DNA of 64,000 nucleotides, from the NCBI RefSeq assembly GCF_025685415.1, contig NZ_JAGSYB010000001.1, positions 682,001-746,000 of the forward strand. The letters run 5' to 3'. Below, piece after piece: positions 36,454 through 44,206 of the stretch. The stretch's first letter is position 1; each line of letters starts with the position of its first letter. This DNA comes from Terriglobus aquaticus (GTDB lineage: Bacteria > Acidobacteriota > Terriglobia > Terriglobales > Acidobacteriaceae). The translations under genes and the position numbers were made by a program. The notes below the pieces were generated by a model. The model was not told the DNA's origin and did no database searches. It saw only the letters and a program-made list of their open reading frames with translations.

Positions 36454-37229
36454 CGGTTCATTCCGAGGGTCCAGAGGAGACCGCGCTCCAGGATGCCGGT
36501 GAAGAGTGGGTTGTCGTAGTTGTCGATGTTGTGACCGAGCGCTATGTAGAACTCGCGGCTGTTATCGAAGGTTTGGGTCCACGCCAACGGCAGAGCGGAC
36601 GGAAACTGACGGGCGTCAGCGGCCTTGTCGCCGAGGGCGAGGGCATCGCGCGGCGTAGTCAGAAGGATGTGAAGATCGGGCGCGAGACGGTCGAGGAAGT
36701 AGCATTCGTCGGTCCAGCGGAAGCTGGCGGGCAGGGAACGGGTGACCGGCGAAGCGGGGTCCGCAACGGTCACGGTGAAGCTCTGCTGGGGCGGGTGGAA
36801 GGCGAAGTGTCCCCCGAGCACCTGCTGGAAGTACGGCCAGTTCCGCTCGCTGCCGGAAGCGGAGTGGACGGCAACGAAGCCATGGCCGGCGTGAATGTAG
36901 GCGCGGAAGGCATCGCGCTGCGCGTCCGTAGCGAAGGCGTCGTTGTTGCTGTTGCTGAAGACCAGGGCGTCGTACCGGCTGAGGTTCGCCGGGGTGAAGG
37001 CCGCCGGATCGGCGGAGGTGTCGACGGTAATACCGTGCTGCGCACCGATGCGGCGGAAGGCCTCGACACTAGCGGCGATGTTTTCGTGGACGTAGCCCTT
37101 GCCATCGGGTGTGTAGTTGCGGGTATAGACCAGGATGCGCTTGGGGGCGGACTGCGCGACGCACAGGCCCACGATCAGGAGGGCTGCGAGGCAGCCGCCC
37201 AGCAGGGCCAGCGATCTCGACCTAGGCAT
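36450..37229 (-). CDS. ThuA domain-containing secreted protein
   Basis: This 259-aa protein has a signal segment (SLALLGGCLAALLIVGLCVAQ) and a ThuA-like glutamine amidotransferase-fold domain. KRILVYTRNYTPDGKGYVHE, FSNSNNDAF and GHGFVAVHSASGSERNWPYF, plus the C-terminal PLAWTQTFDNSREFYIALGHN, all match that family. Relatives are linked to trehalose/sugar use or are secreted enzymes with a heme-like reaction of uncertain nature. ATG 37229 overlaps the lexA end by 8 bases. A secreted member behind lexA is unexpected. Confidence 0.85.
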   Translation of the reverse strand: MPRSRSLALLGGCLAALLIVGLCVAQSAPKRILVYTRNYTPDGKGYVHENIAASVEAFRRIGAQHGITVDTSADPAAFTPANLSRYDALVFSNSNNDAFATDAQRDAFRAYIHAGHGFVAVHSASGSERNWPYFQQVLGGHFAFHPPQQSFTVTVADPASPVTRSLPASFRWTDECYFLDRLAPDLHILLTTPRDALALGDKAADARQFPSALPLAWTQTFDNSREFYIALGHNIDNYDNPLFTGILERGLLWTLGMNR

Positions 37230-37824
37230 ACTTCCGCAACATGCCGAGGACTTTGCCCTGGATGGTGACGCGGTCCGCGGGAGCGAAGATGGGAGCCATG
37301 GCGGCGTTAGACGGTTGCAGGCGTACCATCGCACCTTCTTTGTAGAAGCGCTTCAGGGTGGCGTCTGCGCCGTCCACGAGGGCGACGACAATTTCACCTT
37401 CGCGCGCGGTGGCGGTGCGTTCCACCAGCACGTAGTCGCCGTTGACGATGTGCTCGTCGCACATGGAGTCACCGCGAACTTCGAGAGCGAAGACCTCACG
37501 GCTGCCGACGATCTCTGACAGCGAGATGGTTTCAGCGGTCTCGATGGCTTCGACCGGTTTGCCGGCAGCGATGCGGCCCATGAGCGGGAGCCGGTCTGGC
37601 GTTCGCCGGGACTTCTGCGCAAGGACGTCGATGGACCGGCTCCGGTTGTGGGATCGCTGGAGAAGGCCCTTGTTGTGCAGGTTGGTGACGTGTTTGTGGA
37701 CGGTTGCGAGGGAGTTCAGCCCAAGTCCGGTGGCGATCTCTTCATAGGACGGGGAGTAGCCCTTCCGCTGAGTAAATGCGGAAAGGAAATCGAGCACCTC
37801 TTTTTGCCGACGCGTGATCGCCAT
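37222..37824 (-). CDS. lexA: SOS-response repressor LexA
   Basis: This 200-aa LexA starts at ATG 37824 (AITRRQKEVLDFLSAF) with the winged-helix domain GYSPSYEEIATGLGLNSLATVHKHVTNL. The self-cleavage bond is Ala87-Gly88 (IAAGKP), and the catalytic pair is Ser120 in RGDSM and Lys158 in TLKRFYKEG. The 3' end overlaps the ThuA-like gene. Expected targets such as uvrA and uvrB are in the window, but no canonical SOS box was found upstream of them. Confidence 0.97.
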   Translation of the reverse strand: MAITRRQKEVLDFLSAFTQRKGYSPSYEEIATGLGLNSLATVHKHVTNLHNKGLLQRSHNRSRSIDVLAQKSRRTPDRLPLMGRIAAGKPVEAIETAETISLSEIVGSREVFALEVRGDSMCDEHIVNGDYVLVERTATAREGEIVVALVDGADATLKRFYKEGAMVRLQPSNAAMAPIFAPADRVTIQGKVLGMLRKYA

Positions 37825-37840
37825 GCTGGAATTGTAGCGA

Positions 37841-37902
37841 ATAAAAGGCGAACCGTGGCAAGGGGCATTCGGGTGAACCAAAAGTGGCACATCCGAGCGA
37901 AC
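37841..37902. promoter_or_regulatory. Repeated GAAC motifs upstream of lexA
   Basis: Three GAAC words start at 37850, 37875 and 37899, that is 25 and 24 bases apart. The last two sit in a 13-base near-repeat, CATTCGGGTGAAC and CATCCGAGCGAAC, with 10 of 13 identical. They lie in the divergent gap between lexA and the response-regulator gene. A LexA or other regulator site is possible. Confidence 0.4.
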
Positions 37903-38063
37903 TTTCCCATTTTGAGAAAGCTGAAGTGGAGTGATCCGGCGCATCCGTTGCGAGGCCTAATGCCCACACAGCATCTTTCTTACAGAGCAGCGAATAAGAG
38001 AACGCTCAGCGTTCCGTCCCTTCCAATCTTTCCCCCTGAGTCTGACCGAGATAAGAGGAAACC

Positions 38064-38837
38064 ATGCAGATTTTGCTCGTGGAAGATGACAGTGCTTTGG
38101 CGTCGTTCTTGAAGAAAGGTATGGAACAGCAGGGCCACACGGTGATGCACGCCGCAAACGGAGAAGCCGGCGTGGAGATTGCGGCGGAGAACCAGAATGA
38201 CGTGATCGTGCTGGACCTGAACCTGCCGCGGCTGGACGGGGTAGAGGTGTTGCAGCGCATGCGCCTGGGTGGTGTGCAAACCCCGGTGCTGGTGCTGACG
38301 GGCCGCGGCTCCGTGGAGGAGCGCATCCGCTGCCTGGACGCCGGGGCAGACGATTTCCTGGTGAAGCCGTTTTCGTTCCACGAGATGGCGGCGCGATGCC
38401 GGGCGATCCTGCGGCGCAAAGGTGTGGAAACGGAGAGCTCCGTTGTGCGCCATGGAGCCTTGCAGGTGGACCGGCTGACACGGACGGTGCACGTTCACGG
38501 CGCGGAGGTGGTGCTGACCGCGAAGGAGTTTGCGCTGCTGGACTACCTGCTGCAGAACCGGAAGCGCGCGGTGAGCCGGCCGGAGTTGCTGGAGAAGGTC
38601 TGGAAGATGGCGCCGGACTCCGGCACCAACGTGGTCGATGTGTACGTGAACTATCTGCGCCGCAAGCTGCGGACGGACGAAGGCGACGAAGACCTGATCG
38701 TGACGGTACGGGGCAGCGGGTACGCGCTGGCTCCGGCGGCCGGTCCACTGAAGATGGTGCCGCGCAAGCCAGCCTCTGACGCGTCCTTCCCAGCGCACAT
38801 GCCGGGTACGGAAGCCTTTCCGGCGGTGGCGGCATGA
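38064..38837 (+). CDS. OmpR-family response regulator
   Basis: This 257-aa regulator has a receiver domain with the acidic pair E7/D8-D9, phosphoacceptor Asp51 (VIVLDLNLPRLDG), and Lys in DFLVKPFS. The linker leads to a winged-helix effector (LTAKEFALLDYLLQN, VDVYVNYLRRKL, VRGSGYAL) that ends near residue 220, with a short Pro-rich tail. Its stop overlaps the following small gene (ATGA), so it is part of a three-gene unit. No full histidine kinase is adjacent. Confidence 0.94.
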   Translation: MQILLVEDDSALASFLKKGMEQQGHTVMHAANGEAGVEIAAENQNDVIVLDLNLPRLDGVEVLQRMRLGGVQTPVLVLTGRGSVEERIRCLDAGADDFLVKPFSFHEMAARCRAILRRKGVETESSVVRHGALQVDRLTRTVHVHGAEVVLTAKEFALLDYLLQNRKRAVSRPELLEKVWKMAPDSGTNVVDVYVNYLRRKLRTDEGDEDLIVTVRGSGYALAPAAGPLKMVPRKPASDASFPAHMPGTEAFPAVAA

Positions 38838-39127
38838 GCGGCACCTATATCTCGGTGAATAGGGAACGTGCGCACGGCATCTTGCACGCCCTGAGTCAGC
38901 CGCTGACGGTGATGAGCCTGGCGCTGACGATGATGCAGGGCTCGGCGGATGAGGCGGAGCGCGCGCAGGCGCTAGAAGCGGTGATGGTGGAGTGCCAGCG
39001 CGCGATGCGGTCTGTGTATCAGTTGCGGTCGCTGCTGGATGAAGCTGTGGATGCGGGCCGCGGCCTGGAAGCTCCGGCGCCAGGCGAGACCGCGTGGGTC
39101 GATCGCAGTTTTGGGGGAATGGCATGA
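38834..39127 (+). CDS. Stand-alone histidine-kinase dimerisation-domain protein
   Basis: This 97-aa protein resembles the DHp (HisKA) part of a histidine kinase. The H-box is HGILHALSQPLTVMSLAL, with His18 as likely phosphoacceptor. A second helix (AERAQALEAVMVECQRAMRS, then VYQLRSLLDEA) would complete the hairpin. No ATP-binding domain or sensor is encoded. It overlaps the OmpR regulator stop and the activator start (ATGA both sides). It may be a phosphotransfer or dimerising module, Spo0B-like in logic. That role is inferred. Confidence 0.6.
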   Translation: MSGTYISVNRERAHGILHALSQPLTVMSLALTMMQGSADEAERAQALEAVMVECQRAMRSVYQLRSLLDEAVDAGRGLEAPAPGETAWVDRSFGGMA

Positions 39128-40380
39128 CGCAGGCAGCGGGTCGGGAGATCACGGGAACACAGCCGCCTCGCACTGCGGCGCTGAGCGCGACAGTGCTGGT
39201 GGTGAGCGCGAATGCGGAGTTGCGGGCGCATCTGGCCAAGACGCTGCGAGGTCTGCGGTGGACGGTGCAGGAGGCGGAAAGCGGGGCTGAGGCGTGGCTG
39301 CGGCAGGAGGACCGTCCCTGTGGCGCGGTGCTGCTGGACGAGTGGCTGCCGGACCTGTCGGCGCGTGAGTTTGCCCAGCAGTTCCTGGAACAGTTTCCGA
39401 CGGTCGACATGCTTACGACGGAGGGATCGCCGGTGGCGTCGGCCGTTCGGAGCCCGCGGCGGAACGAGCTGCTGCTGGCATTGCGCGATGCCGAGCACTT
39501 GTGTGCGGCTGCTCCGGCGGCGACAGCCTCGGGGTTGGGAATGCCACCAGTCTCCGCAGCAGCGGCTCCGGTGGGTAATGCTGCCGAGGAACGATCTGCG
39601 GGCGGCACAACCCCGGTGTTTGCCCTGCCGGGCATGCTGGGCGGCAGCGCGGCAATGCAGGAGTTGGGAGCGCTGATCCGGCTTGCGGCTCCGCATTCGG
39701 CCAGCATCCTGGTAGAAGGCGAGACGGGTACAGGCAAGGAGCTGGTGGCGCAGGCGGTGCACCGGTTGAGCGGGCGCTCGGCGAAGCCGTTTGTCACGCT
39801 GAACTGTGCGGCCATTCCAGAGCAACTGCTGGAGTCGGAGCTGTTTGGGCACACCCGCGGAGCGTTCACGGGCGCGGTGAACTCGCGCATGGGGCGCATC
39901 GAGGCGGCGCACGGTGGGACGCTGTTTCTGGACGAGATCGGGGAGATGCCGCTGCCGTTGCAGGCCAAGATGCTGCGCTTCCTGGAATGCGGGGAGATCC
40001 AGCGCATTGGTGAGAATGAGACCTCGCGCGTGGATGTGCGCATCGTGGCCGCGACGCACCAGCCGCTGGAGCTGAATGCAGAGCAGGGCCGGTTCCGCCT
40101 GGACCTGTTTCACCGGCTATCGGTGTTCCCGGTGTGGGTTCCGCCGCTGCGCGAGCGGATGGAAGATGTGCCCATGCTGGTGCAGTTTGCCCTGGAACGA
40201 CTGGGGCAGGACGCACCGCAGCGGAGTATCAGCGCGGCTGCGATGGACGTCCTGCTGGCGCATAGCTGGCCGGGCAATGTCCGGGAGTTGCTGCACGTTC
40301 TGCAGCGCGCGGTGATTCTGAGCACCCACAGCACGGAGATCGGGCCGGAACACATTCGGCTGCGTGCGCGTGCGCGTTGA
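39124..40380 (+). CDS. Sigma54-dependent activator lacking a DNA-binding domain
   Basis: This 418-aa protein has an N-terminal receiver-like domain, with VVSANAE where acidic residues are usual. Asp72 is in AVLLDEWLPDLS, but the conserved Lys is not evident. The AAA+ core (about 178-400) is complete: Walker A EGETGTGKELVAQ, the sigma54-contact loop GAFTGA (ELFGHTRGAFTGAV), and FLDEIGEMPL. The C-terminus stops at IGPEHIRLRARAR, without the Fis-type helix-turn-helix of NtrC. This resembles Helicobacter FlgR, which also works without DNA binding. The flgK gene follows. Confidence 0.88.
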   Translation: MTQAAGREITGTQPPRTAALSATVLVVSANAELRAHLAKTLRGLRWTVQEAESGAEAWLRQEDRPCGAVLLDEWLPDLSAREFAQQFLEQFPTVDMLTTEGSPVASAVRSPRRNELLLALRDAEHLCAAAPAATASGLGMPPVSAAAAPVGNAAEERSAGGTTPVFALPGMLGGSAAMQELGALIRLAAPHSASILVEGETGTGKELVAQAVHRLSGRSAKPFVTLNCAAIPEQLLESELFGHTRGAFTGAVNSRMGRIEAAHGGTLFLDEIGEMPLPLQAKMLRFLECGEIQRIGENETSRVDVRIVAATHQPLELNAEQGRFRLDLFHRLSVFPVWVPPLRERMEDVPMLVQFALERLGQDAPQRSISAAAMDVLLAHSWPGNVRELLHVLQRAVILSTHSTEIGPEHIRLRARAR

Positions 40381-40408
40381 ATCTGCCAGCGAAAGCGTGG
40401 AAGATCTA

Positions 40409-40429
40409 AGGCCGCTCTAAGGGCGGCCT
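40409..40429. terminator. Hairpin after the regulator operon
   Basis: Arms AGGCCGC and GCGGCCT (7 pairs) around TCTAAGG, 28 bases past the activator stop. The downstream CTCTCGCCTTCT is only moderately T-rich. Its location suggests separation of the regulator operon from the flgK promoter. Confidence 0.5.
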
Positions 40430-40438
40430 CTCGCCTTC

Positions 40439-40454
40439 TGGACCTTCGCGTGCA
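40439..40454 (+). promoter_or_regulatory. Candidate sigma54 (-24/-12) promoter of flgK
   Basis: TGG at 40439-40441 and TGCA at 40451-40454 put the invariant GG and GC exactly 10 bases apart, as in TGGCACG-N4-TTGCW. It lies 23 bases upstream of the flgK ATG and just after the sigma54-activator gene. The predicted leader is short, about 13 nt, and includes the AGGAGG site. Confidence 0.5.
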
Positions 40455-40477
40455 CCTAGAGGCGACAGGAGGAACGC

Positions 40478-41869
40478 ATGCTGGACGCTCCCATGACCCA
40501 AGCGCTGAGCCGGTACCTGGATCTGCAAACGGCGCGCATAAAGGTGACGGCGACCAACATGGCCAACCAGAACACGCCAGGGTATGCACGCCGGACCGTG
40601 ACCTGGACCGGCGGCGACACCGTAAGCCTGACCGGCATTGGCGCAGGACAGAATCCGATGGCGACCGTGACGGCGCAGCGCAGCTCTGTGCTGGATGCTG
40701 CCGTGGCCAGCACCACTGCGAGTTCGGCCTCAGCGAACACGGTGAAGTCTGCATTGAACTCTCTGCAGGCGGTGTTTGCGATCAACTCGGCCGGCGATGA
40801 AGGCTCCGGAATCAATGCAGCGATGAGTGGGTTCTTCGCCGCGATGCAGTCGATCGCGGCCGACCCGTCCAGCGGCAGCGCCCGGCAGGCGGCGTTTGCG
40901 GCAGCGCAGACGGTTGCGAGCAGCTTTCAGGCGACGAGTGCGACGCTCTCGCAGCAGGCGTCCGATCTGGATGGCTCGGTGCAGAACTCAGTCAGCAGCA
41001 TCAACCAGCTCACAGCTTCGATTGCCGCGCTGAACGGGAGCATTGGATGCGCTGGCACCGCGGCGGACCGGGAGGCCCTGCTGGACCAGCGGAGCGCGCA
41101 GATCGACAGCCTTTCGCAGCTGGTTGGCGTGCAGCAGATGAGCAACAGCGATGGTTCGGTGAGCCTGTTTACGTCGAACGGCGGAGCCCTGGTGGTTGGC
41201 AGCCAGAGTGACGCGGTGTCCACGCGCAGTGCGGGCAACGGTGCGTTGCAGATCTATGTGCAGGGCACGAACATCACGACCGGTCTCGAGGGCGGCAGTG
41301 TTGGCGGTGCGCTTGCTGCGCGCGACGGAGCCCTGGCCGATGCGCAAACGCGAATCGACGCGCTGGCGTCTGCGTTTGCCACGGCGGTAAATGCCGCCAA
41401 CAGCAACGGGAACACGCAGGCGGGGAACGCAGGAGCTGCGATCTTCAGCCTGGATCCTACGGCTGCGCATCCTGCGGCGACCATCGCGGTTGCTGCCACG
41501 AGCGGCGCCGACTTTGCGGCGGCAGGGAATGGCGAAGGCGCAAATGGGACGGGTAACGCGAACGCGATGGCAGCACTGGCGAACCAGGAGAACTCGTCCG
41601 GTGAAACCTTTGCGGGCGTGCTGAGCTCTGCAATCAGCAGCATCGGAACGTCTGCCGCGGCTGCGCAGACCAATGCCGCAGCAGCAAGCTCAGCGCAGAA
41701 CCAGGCGAGCGCGAACCAGGAGGCGCTGTCGGGTGTCTCGCTGGATACGGAGGCGGCGAACCTGACCCAGTATCAGCGCAGCTACGAGGCGGAGGCCAAG
41801 CTGCTGGCTGTGCTGGACCAGATCATGACCGACACCATCAACCTCGGCACTAACACGGCGGTTTCCTAA
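40478..41869 (+). CDS. flgK: Flagellar hook-associated protein 1
   Basis: This 463-aa protein forms the hook-filament junction. The N-terminal motif ATNMANQNTPGYARRTVTW and the C-terminal LTQYQRSYEAEAKLLAVLDQIM, which form the coiled coil of rod/hook proteins, are typical. The middle is low-complexity, Ala/Ser/Asn-rich as in FlgK. It starts at ATG 40478 behind a strong AGGAGG and is followed 3 bases later by flgL. There are no other hook or basal-body genes nearby. Confidence 0.92.
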   Translation: MLDAPMTQALSRYLDLQTARIKVTATNMANQNTPGYARRTVTWTGGDTVSLTGIGAGQNPMATVTAQRSSVLDAAVASTTASSASANTVKSALNSLQAVFAINSAGDEGSGINAAMSGFFAAMQSIAADPSSGSARQAAFAAAQTVASSFQATSATLSQQASDLDGSVQNSVSSINQLTASIAALNGSIGCAGTAADREALLDQRSAQIDSLSQLVGVQQMSNSDGSVSLFTSNGGALVVGSQSDAVSTRSAGNGALQIYVQGTNITTGLEGGSVGGALAARDGALADAQTRIDALASAFATAVNAANSNGNTQAGNAGAAIFSLDPTAAHPAATIAVAATSGADFAAAGNGEGANGTGNANAMAALANQENSSGETFAGVLSSAISSIGTSAAAAQTNAAAASSAQNQASANQEALSGVSLDTEAANLTQYQRSYEAEAKLLAVLDQIMTDTINLGTNTAVS

Positions 41870-41872
41870 ACG

Positions 41873-42757
41873 ATGCTGACTTCTGCAAGTTCGATGGCGA
41901 GCCTGGTTGCCCAGGCGGGAGCGCTGAGCGATCAGCAGGCGGAGATTGCGCGAGAGCTGAGCAGCGGGACGCGGCTGACGCGGCTCTCCAACGATCCGAT
42001 GGCGGCGGCGGCGACCGTTCGGTTGAGCAGCGGTATTGCCGAGGCTTCGGCTACGGCTGCTGCGATCCAAACTGTGCAGGCTCGCATGCAGACGGCAGAC
42101 TCGGCACTGGGATCGGTCGTGACACAACTCACGTCCGCCATTTCCACGGCGGTTGCTGCGGCAAATGGGACGCAGAACGCGGCAGACCTGGCAAGTGGTG
42201 CCGTGCAGTTGAGCAGCATCCGGGACAGCGTGCTGAACGCGGCCAACAGCAGCTATAACGGCACGTACCTGTTTGCGGGAACTTCGTCGGCCGTGCCATT
42301 CGCGATGAACAGCAGCACGGGTGAGGTGAGCTACGGCGGCGACGCTGCCGGTATGACGTTTGCGGTCGCGGGTCAGACGCTGCAGACCTCGGCAAGCGGG
42401 TCGGCACTGTTTGGCAGCGGAAGCGGATCGGTGTTTGCAAGCCTGCAGAGCTTGATCGGGACTATGGCCTCCGGAGGGACACCGACTGCGGGCCAGGTTG
42501 AGAGTCTGCGGTCATCGTTGCAGACCGTGATTGATGGGCGAAGCGCACTGGCCAGCAGCCAGAGTCGCCTGCAAACGGCCGCCACTGGGGTGGCGTCGCA
42601 ACAGACGAATCTCCAGGCGGAGCAGACCACGGTCGCGGCAAGCGATCCCGTGGCGCTGGCCACGGAGTTGAGTGCGGCGGAGACACAGCGGTCTGCGCTG
42701 TTGAGCAGCCTGGCCAGCATGAGTAAGAGCAGCCTGTTCGATTACCTGTCGGCCTGA
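41873..42757 (+). CDS. flgL: Flagellar hook-associated protein 3
   Basis: This 294-aa junction protein works between FlgK and the filament. The start QQAEIARELSSGTRLTRLSNDPMAAA is the flagellin-like N-terminal domain (ISSGxRLxxxSDDP). The C-terminal LSAAETQRSALLSSLASMSKSSLFDYL gives the matching helix. It begins 3 bases past flgK and is certainly cotranscribed. Flagellin fliC is not in the window. Confidence 0.92.
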   Translation: MLTSASSMASLVAQAGALSDQQAEIARELSSGTRLTRLSNDPMAAAATVRLSSGIAEASATAAAIQTVQARMQTADSALGSVVTQLTSAISTAVAAANGTQNAADLASGAVQLSSIRDSVLNAANSSYNGTYLFAGTSSAVPFAMNSSTGEVSYGGDAAGMTFAVAGQTLQTSASGSALFGSGSGSVFASLQSLIGTMASGGTPTAGQVESLRSSLQTVIDGRSALASSQSRLQTAATGVASQQTNLQAEQTTVAASDPVALATELSAAETQRSALLSSLASMSKSSLFDYLSA

Positions 42758-42786: not shown

Positions 42787-43008
42787 ATGTTTGCGCCCCT
42801 GCGCTTTCTTTGGCACGCCACGCGTGGATACCGCTTTACGCCCTGGCGCAGCCCCTATTTGCGATGGCGCCTGGAAACGTACTCCGGTCTGCACGCGGAG
42901 ACGATGACGCTGTCTGAGATGGCTGGTGTGGTGTGGCGCGACAAGGGGCAGTTCCTGCGTTTCCTGCGATGGACGGGCCAGATGGAACGCGAGTCGAACC
43001 GTGACTGA
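42787..43008 (+). CDS. Small basic protein overlapping the xylanase gene
   Basis: This 73-aa protein (APLRFLWHATRGYRFTPWRS, then VVWRDKGQFLRFLRWTGQ) is rich in Arg, Trp and Phe and may be membrane-associated. It has no recognised family. It ends inside the start of the GH10 gene (8-base overlap), so translation of the two may be coupled. Confidence 0.6.
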   Translation: MFAPLRFLWHATRGYRFTPWRSPYLRWRLETYSGLHAETMTLSEMAGVVWRDKGQFLRFLRWTGQMERESNRD

Positions 43009-44206
43009 GTCCGGCGCGGCAAGCAGCTTGACCCGTCGATCCTTGTTGCTGGGTACCGTGAGCACGACAGCGGCGTACCTGGCCGGCTGCGCACACCGGG
43101 GAGGACTGGGGCCGGTTCCACAGAATAGAACTGTCCCACCGCCGGTGCCGAAAGCCCGTTCCGCTGCACCGCTGAAAACGCAGGCAGCAGCGCACCACCT
43201 GCTGTTCGGGTTTGCGCTGAACGTGCGGCAACTGCGCGAGTCGGAATCGTATCGTCGTCTCGTCCTGGAGCAAAGCAGCATCGCTGTGGCCGAGAACGCG
43301 ATGAAGTGGAGTGCGCTGCGGCCCGCGCCCGATCAGTACTTCTTCGACGATGCCGATTTTCTGGTGCAGTTTGGCGAGCAGAACCGCATCAAGCTGCGCG
43401 GGCACAACCTGTGCTGGCATGAGCAATTGCCGAAGTGGTTCGATGCGACGGCGAACGGGGCCAACGCGCGCACGCTCCTGACGGAGCACATCCGCACCGT
43501 GGCGGGGCGCTATGCCGGACGGATTCATAGCTGGGACGTGGTGAATGAGGCGGTGGAGCCTCGCGACGGCCGGCCGGATGGTCTGCGCAACTCGCCGTGG
43601 TTGCGGCTGATTGGCGAGACCTACCTGGAGCTGGCGTTCCGGACCGCGCGGCAGGCCGATCCGACTGCGCTGCTCACGTACAACGATTACGACATTGAAG
43701 ACGAGTCCCCGTACCAGGCGGAGAAGCGCGCAGCGGTGCTGCGGATGTTGCGTCGCCTGAAGCAGCGAAATGTGCCCATCGACGCTGTCGGCATTCAGTC
43801 TCATATCAGCGCGGGAACGGGTCACCGGTACGGAGCTTCGCTGCAGCAGTTCATTCTGAGCTGCCGCGAGATGGATCTGGAAGTGTTCGTCACGGAGCTG
43901 GACGTGGACGATCGGGAACTGCCGAAGCAGGTTGCTGAACGGGACGCGGGAGTGGCCGAGGCGTACCGGCAATATCTGGACGTGGTGCTGCGCGAGCCGA
44001 ACGTGCGTGCGGTGCTTACCTGGGGAGTGGATGACGCGCAGAGCTGGCTCTCAGGCAAGCGGCCGCGTGCAGACGGAGTGCCGCAGCGCCCCTTACTGTG
44101 GGATGCGCAGTTCCGGCCCAAGAAGGCGGTGAGTGCGGTGGAGCAGGCTTTTGTGGAGGCTCGCCCGGCGCCGGCACCTGCGGCCGGACGAAGCAGCCGG
44201 CGGTAG
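43001..44206 (+). CDS. GH10 endo-1,4-beta-xylanase, Tat lipoprotein
   Basis: This 401-aa glycoside hydrolase family 10 enzyme cuts the xylan backbone. The acid/base Glu is in SWDVVNEAVEP and the nucleophile Glu in VFVTELDVDD. The substrate-binding GHNLCWHEQLPKW is intact. The N-terminus carries a twin-arginine motif (TRRSLLLG) and a lipobox LAGC, so it is probably Tat-exported and lipidated. GTG 43001 starts in the upstream small gene's last codons. No other xylan gene adjoins. Confidence 0.93.
   Translation: MTESGAASSLTRRSLLLGTVSTTAAYLAGCAHRGGLGPVPQNRTVPPPVPKARSAAPLKTQAAAHHLLFGFALNVRQLRESESYRRLVLEQSSIAVAENAMKWSALRPAPDQYFFDDADFLVQFGEQNRIKLRGHNLCWHEQLPKWFDATANGANARTLLTEHIRTVAGRYAGRIHSWDVVNEAVEPRDGRPDGLRNSPWLRLIGETYLELAFRTARQADPTALLTYNDYDIEDESPYQAEKRAAVLRMLRRLKQRNVPIDAVGIQSHISAGTGHRYGASLQQFILSCREMDLEVFVTELDVDDRELPKQVAERDAGVAEAYRQYLDVVLREPNVRAVLTWGVDDAQSWLSGKRPRADGVPQRPLLWDAQFRPKKAVSAVEQAFVEARPAPAPAAGRSSRR

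Follow-up and report, generated by a model that had tools for sequence, protein, structure and literature searches.

A conserved flagellar regulatory unit, probably a reduced sigma54 switch, beside an flgB::flgK deletion scar in Terriglobus aquaticus

Why should three regulatory genes, none encoding a complete kinase, stand directly before genes for the hook-filament junction in Terriglobus aquaticus? The question arises at 38064..42757 of a 64,000-nucleotide stretch of its genome (GCF_025685415.1, contig NZ_JAGSYB010000001.1, positions 682,001 to 746,000, forward strand), here called the window. The gene order is lexA (divergent; the name is our assumption), an OmpR-family response regulator, a protein that is a dimerization and histidine phosphotransfer (DHp) domain only, a sigma54 activator without a helix-turn-helix (HTH) motif, a hairpin, a -24/-12 element, an flgB::flgK chimera and flgL (Table 1). 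An earlier reading of the letters alone (the sequence-only reading) had described three regulatory genes overlapping start to stop and followed by a hairpin, a candidate sigma54 promoter and hook-junction genes. All the genes lie where it placed them, both overlaps within the triplet are ATGA, and the three downstream features are present, except that its "flgK" is a chimera of FlgB and FlgK. The explanation that we consider very probable for the whole locus is that the triplet is a conserved flagellar regulatory unit, working as a reduced sigma54 switch, that now lies beside a deletion scar. Below, G000 is the source genome of the window, other G numbers are genomes of relatives and L numbers are loci; the loci named are the best 80 of 169.

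The triplet recurs widely among relatives. An activator orthologue above 360 bits was found in 16 of the 19 genomes of the genus, and in one more (G106) a contig end truncates it; the two genus genomes without an orthologue are 70% and 80% complete. The order lexA (divergent), response regulator, DHp gene, activator was present in 16 genus relatives and in three genomes from two other genera, so that the gene order for which the sequence-only reading had advised a search in other Acidobacteriota does recur there. Downstream of the triplet, flgB followed in ten of the 16 genus relatives and flgK-flgL, the arrangement of the window, in G095 and G103; in G113 and G114, and also in G064 from outside the genus, the next gene was a fliA-like sigma gene (the FliA profile used for the locus scan held one wrong row, an open reading frame beside fliA of G031), and two contigs end. 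Among 100 genomes of the family, 30 had both fliG and a strong match to the activator's pseudo-receiver (85 bits or more), five the receiver alone, 16 fliG alone and 49 neither (Fisher p = 3.5e-9 for co-occurrence, kinship ignored). When 297 genomes of the phylum were searched, with at most 16 candidates scored per genome, the matches of at least 116 bits (24 genomes) all fell within the window's GTDB family. The triplet is thus a conserved flagellar regulatory unit, and it usually heads the flagellar cluster, with flgB next. The same acidobacterial unit stands before flgB in L102, on a contig titled Rhodanobacteraceae, which is probably a misassigned bin.

The intergenic stretch is conserved as well. 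Sigma54 promoters have a GG-N10-GC consensus element, and of the 33 triplet loci in which a DHp gene is present and flgB comes next, 28 have the pattern TGG-N9-TGCW, against 1.25 of 33 expected from shuffles (25 of 29 once four doubly fetched loci were removed); this count is not blind, because the pattern was picked after the full-consensus hits had been seen. Loci before flgB that have no DHp gene carried it in 10 of 41 cases (0.90 expected), and the loci with a deletion scar in two of three, the third (G103) having TGG-N9-TGCC. The full sigma54 consensus reached p ≤ 0.05 in 19 of 92 loci. A hairpin precedes the element or a near match in the 12 intergenic stretches inspected, and rpoN is present in the window's own genome (380 bits) and in all five relatives tested. 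The GG-N10-GC element and the rpoN gene together mark a putative sigma54 promoter, and the -24/-12 element is, as judged from its place in relatives, originally that of flgB.

The gene behind this element carries the scar. The first 30 residues of its product are FlgB-like in protein alignment and the remainder is FlgK; tblastn matched flgB 8-52 and then flgK 22-451, and the NCBIfam FlgB model matched chimera residues 8-43 at 35.3 bits, under its cut-off. The same kind of chimera, with an identical junction codon in protein and DNA alignments, is found in G095 and G103. In the flagellated relative G031 the cluster spans flgB to flgK-flgL, and by its coordinates about 23.9 kb are missing from the window; between flgB and flgK, relatives have genes for the rod, hook, MS ring, rotor and export gate, and fliA. 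A concatenated tree grouped G095 with G105 and G031, G103 with G102, and G000 with G111 and G112, and FliF and FliG of the flagellated relatives branch in the same way. One shared deletion, with G000, G095 and G103 as a single clade, was rejected by the tree (approximately unbiased test, p-AU 3.1e-5). The DNA of each chimera tracks its own nearest relatives, in the flgB part and then in the flgK part (G095 with G105, G103 with G102). The best reading of these results is three separate deletions, each of which fused flgB, near codon 30, with the homologous flgK codon. An explanation of the joint by long repeats was rejected: the longest words shared by flgB and flgK are of 9-10 bases and are located away from it.

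Other joints occur in the family. In G115 (L034, L150) the module and flgB to fliG and fliH are kept, fliI breaks off near residue 192 with a xylanase gene behind it, and flgK and flgL are missing. In G099 (L176 4893-6809) the activator, up to about residue 333, runs on in frame into FlgI, from its residue 96, with flgJ, flgK and flgL downstream; fliG was not found in this genome, which is 85% complete. In a peat-bog metagenome (L078 5941-8025) the activator is fused in frame to most of FlgE, through another deletion or through misassembly. In-frame fusions are thus a repeated event in the family, as far as assemblies, from which alone they are known, can tell.

What is left of the flagellar gene set in the three scar genomes is a filament without a base. 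fliG was not found in G000, G095 or G103, nor in G110 (80% complete), by a search that found it in 15 of the 19 genus genomes; flhA (FHIPEP) was not found in G000, G095, G103, G110 or G115 by a search that found it in 14 of 19. In G000, G095 and G103 flgK is the sole gene of the rod/hook type (Flg_bbr_C), and no FliA match exceeded the cut-off, weaker matches of about 110 bits being seen in flagellated relatives also. A search of the window's own genome for fliG, Flg_bbr_C, Flagellin_N, FHIPEP and FliA gave only flgK, flgL and fliC (FliF, FlgI, FlhB and others were not searched). That genome keeps fliC (contig 1, 265068-266300) and fliD (Pfam), with genes alongside that we take, from sequence and position, to be fliS, motA and motB, all as open frames. 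The motA- and motB-like genes are retained beside fliC (L142 7444-9103) though no rotor gene was found. All three scar genomes keep open fliC, fliD, fliS, flgL and regulator frames. The rotor gene fliG, the export gate gene flhA and rod/hook-type genes other than flgK, which a functional flagellum needs, were not found in G000, and on this gene content a flagellum cannot be built there. A kinase-sized gene and an NtrC-type regulator lie beside fliC in G103 (L144 5131-8459), a genome without basal body genes; this regulator is 42% identical to an HTH-bearing activator in L165, described below.

The first protein of the unit is an OmpR-family regulator, with a complete receiver (Response_reg, 1.1e-27) and winged helix (Trans_reg_C, 6.1e-26) by Pfam; its receiver site is complete in nearly all of 109 homologues (Lys in 109, Asp in 107, Thr/Ser in 109). 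The second gave a single Pfam match, to HisKA (3.3e-5, 24.3 bits, just under the gathering score of 26.9), and no match to HATPase_c in its 97 residues, so that the ATP-binding domain of a HisKA kinase is lacking. Its phosphoacceptor His was kept in all 54 homologues that lie beside an activator, and the full H-x3-Q-P-x-T motif in 53, in proteins otherwise only 20-29% identical to that of the window; these counts cover matches above 38 bits, a selection that favours the motif, and omit six weaker proteins from more distant (type III) loci, each of which has H-x3-Q-P. The residue at H+1 was acidic in just 32 of 53. The structure model is a two-helix hairpin (pLDDT 84.7); a Foldseek search with it gave nothing at E ≤ 0.001, with unrelated helix hairpins on top and HK853 at rank 15 (E 0.25), and was not used. 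A chance open reading frame is ruled out by conservation in 54 homologues, and a broken kinase by the next gene, which begins at the stop of this one, and by the same short protein in relatives.

The protein resembles a kinase that has lost its ATPase domain. In the parts of PMC3510030 that bear on such domains, an acidic H+1 residue is needed for kinase and not for phosphatase activity, T or N at H+4 is tied to phosphatase activity, the DHp domain of EnvZ or NtrB alone is sufficient for that activity, and Gln is the phosphatase residue of HisKA_3 (DxxxQ), at a spacing different from that of the H+4 Gln here. With its His, its Gln at H+4 and neither a reliable acidic residue nor an ATPase domain, the protein is more likely to be a phosphatase or phosphate carrier that serves the OmpR regulator than to be a kinase. 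The claim of the sequence-only reading that the locus has a stand-alone DHp and no complete kinase was borne out, and with it the idea that signal input, as phosphate, must come from elsewhere.

The third protein matched Sigma54_activat (3.2e-67) and AAA_lid_14, the latter up to residue 414 of 418. That it could not bind DNA by a C-terminal HTH had been proposed and holds: Pfam detected no HTH in it or in nine orthologues (0/10), and 30-69 residues follow GNVREL in 111 activator homologues against 98 in an HTH-bearing neighbour. GAFTGA, the motor motif of the sigma54-interaction AAA+ domain, was invariant and intact in all 16 aligned activators. The sequence-only reading had missed, however, that the N-terminus is receiver-like, with its Asp kept and its acidic pair absent in 113 of 113. 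Only the loss of the acidic pair is claimed, because the positions of the Lys and Thr align uncertainly; and because the pair is absent throughout, this pseudo-receiver is unlikely to take phosphate. A phosphorylatable receiver with a cognate kinase, as in FlgR, was not found for this protein. The structure model is poor overall (pLDDT 67.5), and only its receiver part, with block pLDDT mostly 84-93, was used.

The loci fall into three types. Type I (58 of 119 loci) has the DHp gene; type II (49) has regulator and activator with nothing recognised between them; type III (12) is more distant. These class numbers include loci fetched twice under two names, and two of 121 loci (L048, L174) had no activator with a receiver match. 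The middle gene of type III encodes 229-261 residues in eight of the 12 loci and 94 in one, is not recognised in two and is cut in one; the loci with such kinase-like proteins in the place of the DHp gene are among L160-L167, L172, L175, L177 and L178. HisKA was found in all six of the long proteins scanned, and HATPase_c was over the cut-off in L175, weak in L165, marginal in L160 and absent in three. A second sigma54 activator lies near flgB in nine of the 12 type III loci, and the two that were scanned (L165, L166) have a receiver and HTH_8; in L165 a PAS-type histidine kinase precedes it, with H, N and G boxes recognised by eye. The sequence-only reading had held that a normal kinase and an HTH-bearing activator in homologous loci would count against it. 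Such a kinase (L165) and such activators (L165, L166) do exist beside such a triplet, but the orthologous activators themselves have no HTH. The series from a kinase-like protein to a DHp-only protein to none suggests stepwise loss, probably in that direction.

How might the unit work? Judging from position and conservation, in relatives with a flagellar cluster it most likely drives the flgB-fliF-fliG operon, between lexA and which it lies, from the sigma54-type promoter. The OmpR regulator would receive its phosphate from a kinase encoded elsewhere and would control transcription of the unit or of the cluster, and the HTH-less AAA+ activator, by its domains, would open the promoter from solution, as FlgR does. 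Alone, the DHp protein cannot autophosphorylate; most likely it acts on the OmpR regulator as a phosphatase or phosphohistidine carrier, tuning it, and it may also dock on the activator's pseudo-receiver. As the sequence shows, the deletion in the window left an flgB::flgK chimera, in frame, and flgL downstream of the former flgB promoter.

Several observations weigh against this account. Taken by itself, the window gives no significant match to the full sigma54 consensus (p = 0.13), Gln rather than T or N occupies H+4 in all 53 motif-bearing DHp homologues, and no DHp gene lies between regulator and activator in 49 of 119 loci, so that it must be dispensable in many relatives. At the joint flgB and flgK agree in register at 13-16 of 24 bases, a modest similarity exceeded by 0 to 71 windows among 0.43-0.56 million, and three identical joints are therefore only partly explained. 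Their identity down to the codon might instead point to one deletion allele common to the three genomes, by descent or by joint transfer; since the single clade is rejected and each chimera tracks its own relatives around the joint, a transferred tract could span only a few bases there, which makes this very improbable. The sequence-only reading saw in the unit a purpose-built relay controlling flgKL for flagellar assembly in this organism, and flgKL does stand directly behind the promoter. That proposal is barely tenable: the promoter is flgB's in relatives, where the unit lies before flgB or a fliA-like gene, flgKL adjoins the unit here because of the deletion, and with rotor, export gate, sigma28 and other rod/hook-type genes not found, no flagellum can be made. 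A possible but doubtful alternative to phosphate chemistry is that the DHp protein is a FliX-like docking factor on the pseudo-receiver, holding or releasing the AAA+ ring. The absence of the acidic pair in all 113 favours it, as does Caulobacter FlbD, which according to excerpts of PMC7064773 acts without a cognate kinase, via FliX. On the other side, the near-invariant His motif in otherwise divergent proteins suggests chemistry at the His or contact with a receiver, the OmpR regulator linked to it retains a complete site, and type II loci hold the pseudo-receiver with no DHp gene between.

Whichever way the switch works, the genes left behind in the scar genomes are somewhat likely to be a decaying relic, in which regulators, flgB::flgK, flgL and fliCDS merely await loss after recent deletions. 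The missing export gate and rotor and the existence of losses with other joints in the family (G115, G099, L078) agree with this. So do slightly elevated ratios of nonsynonymous to synonymous substitution (dN/dS) on the G095 branch, of 0.20 for the response regulator and 0.13 for FlgK, against 0.04-0.09 for these proteins in two flagellated sisters; some G102-G103 pairs were close to saturation or beyond it. For G000, which lacks a close sister, identities alone were compared: measured against G111 and G112, its response regulator, activator and FlgK are lower by about 2 to 7 points in identity to outgroups, FlgL differs by less than 2 points, and LexA and xylanase are not lower. Set against decay are the open frames in all three lineages, the same in-frame joint found three times and dN/dS values that are still low on the G095 branch (FlgL 0.04, FliC 0.03, FliD 0.03, FliS 0.07, activator 0.07, DHp protein 0.08). 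The data agree both with a recent loss and with selection that continues, slightly relaxed. An unlikely further reading is that three lineages independently excised basal body, hook and export machine while selection kept the in-frame chimera, FlgL, flagellin, cap and FliS under a sigma54 switch of three proteins; in that case filament proteins and regulator would serve a non-flagellar function, and the DHp-only protein would be a new bare-hairpin histidine phosphotransfer protein.

Table 1. Features of the locus, in window positions
Feature	Coordinates	Strand	Evidence
lexA, divergent left neighbour in relatives too	37222..37944	-	79-88% identical proteins, same place in loci compared
OmpR-family response regulator, full receiver site	38064..38837	+	Pfam Response_reg and Trans_reg_C
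DHp-only protein, 97 residues	38834..39127	+	HisKA match; His18, Gln22, Pro23, Thr25 (H-x3-Q-P-x-T)
HTH-less sigma54 activator: pseudo-receiver, AAA+, lid	39124..40380	+	Pfam; conserved Asp72
Activator pseudo-receiver domain	39184..39507	+	Alignment; receiver-like part of structure model
Hairpin 3' of activator gene, terminator-like	40409..40429	+	9-bp stem in fold
Putative -24/-12 sigma54-type element TGGACCTTCGCGTGCA, originally flgB's	40439..40454	+	Same element before flgB in relatives
flgB::flgK chimeric gene, deletion scar at about codon 30	40478..41869	+	Protein and DNA alignments, tblastn
flgB-derived 5' part of chimera, residues 1-30	40478..40567	+	Protein alignment; NCBIfam FlgB match under cut-off
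flgL	41873..42757	+	TIGR02550; Pfam Flagellin_N and Flagellin_C

The flgL product matched TIGR02550 at 2e-36 (126.2 bits, cut-off 127.2). The right flank of the scar is a glycosyl hydrolase family 10 (xylanase) gene (window 42926-44206), in relatives too.

These observations point to one-step loss of the flagellum on three or more occasions, each time at the same codon of a pair of paralogues that lie near the two ends of the cluster, and the surviving filament genes allow one to ask what half a flagellum is for. They also point to a two-component system in reduced form, where one promoter brings together a hairpin derived from a kinase, a pseudo-receiver and an activator without HTH, with natural intermediates (kinase-like protein, DHp-only protein, none) for testing how a kinase is dismantled with its His kept.

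Parallels exist for several of these parts. The sequence-only reading knew of no described system of this composition, which overlooked that flagellar sigma54 activators without a DNA-binding domain are known: excerpts of PMC3162934 and PMC7175178 list FlgR of Helicobacter pylori and CtcC of Chlamydia as such proteins, and FlgS/FlgR likewise serves flagellar genes. FlgR is a response regulator fed by the complete kinase FlgS; here, in contrast, the receiver has no acidic pair, the linked DHp has no ATPase domain and an OmpR regulator stands alongside. FlrBC of Vibrio and FleSR of Pseudomonas, as described in part of PMC7064773, pair a kinase with a sigma54 activator to control rod and hook genes, and such a kinase and HTH_8 activator precede flgB in L165. 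Unlike FlrBC and FleSR, type I loci have no such pair between triplet and flgB (0-1 gene-free intervals apart). Caulobacter FlbD has an HTH, in which it differs from the activator here. FlbD/FliX is otherwise comparable as a flagellar sigma54 activator without a cognate kinase and with a small partner protein (PMC7064773, in part). EnvZ and NtrB are comparable through their DHp domains, isolated in the laboratory; those fragments have T or N at H+4, whereas here a natural gene encodes Gln at that position. Spo0B is a DHp-type His carrier with a degenerated ATPase domain. ChpT is another, from an excerpt of PMC9981736; it keeps the degenerate domain, whereas here the domain is gone and the model predicts a two-helix hairpin only. 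For the scar, the nearest case comes from part of PMC3826837, where Xanthomonas fuscans lost 34 contiguous flagellar genes together and an insertion sequence copy marks the deletion; the joint here differs in that it connects flgB and flgK within their paralogous 5' ends, leaves a fused gene and recurs in three lineages. In the portion of PMC12199754 concerned, FliC is tied to motility and a filament protein occurs without a rotor protein in 34 of 11365 species; the scar genomes are of this rare kind. No description of the triplet or of the recurrent flgB::flgK joint was found in searches of an open-access library. HTH-less flagellar activators being already known from FlgR, what is new here is the combination of a DHp-only protein with a pseudo-receiver, together with the recurrent flgB::flgK joint.

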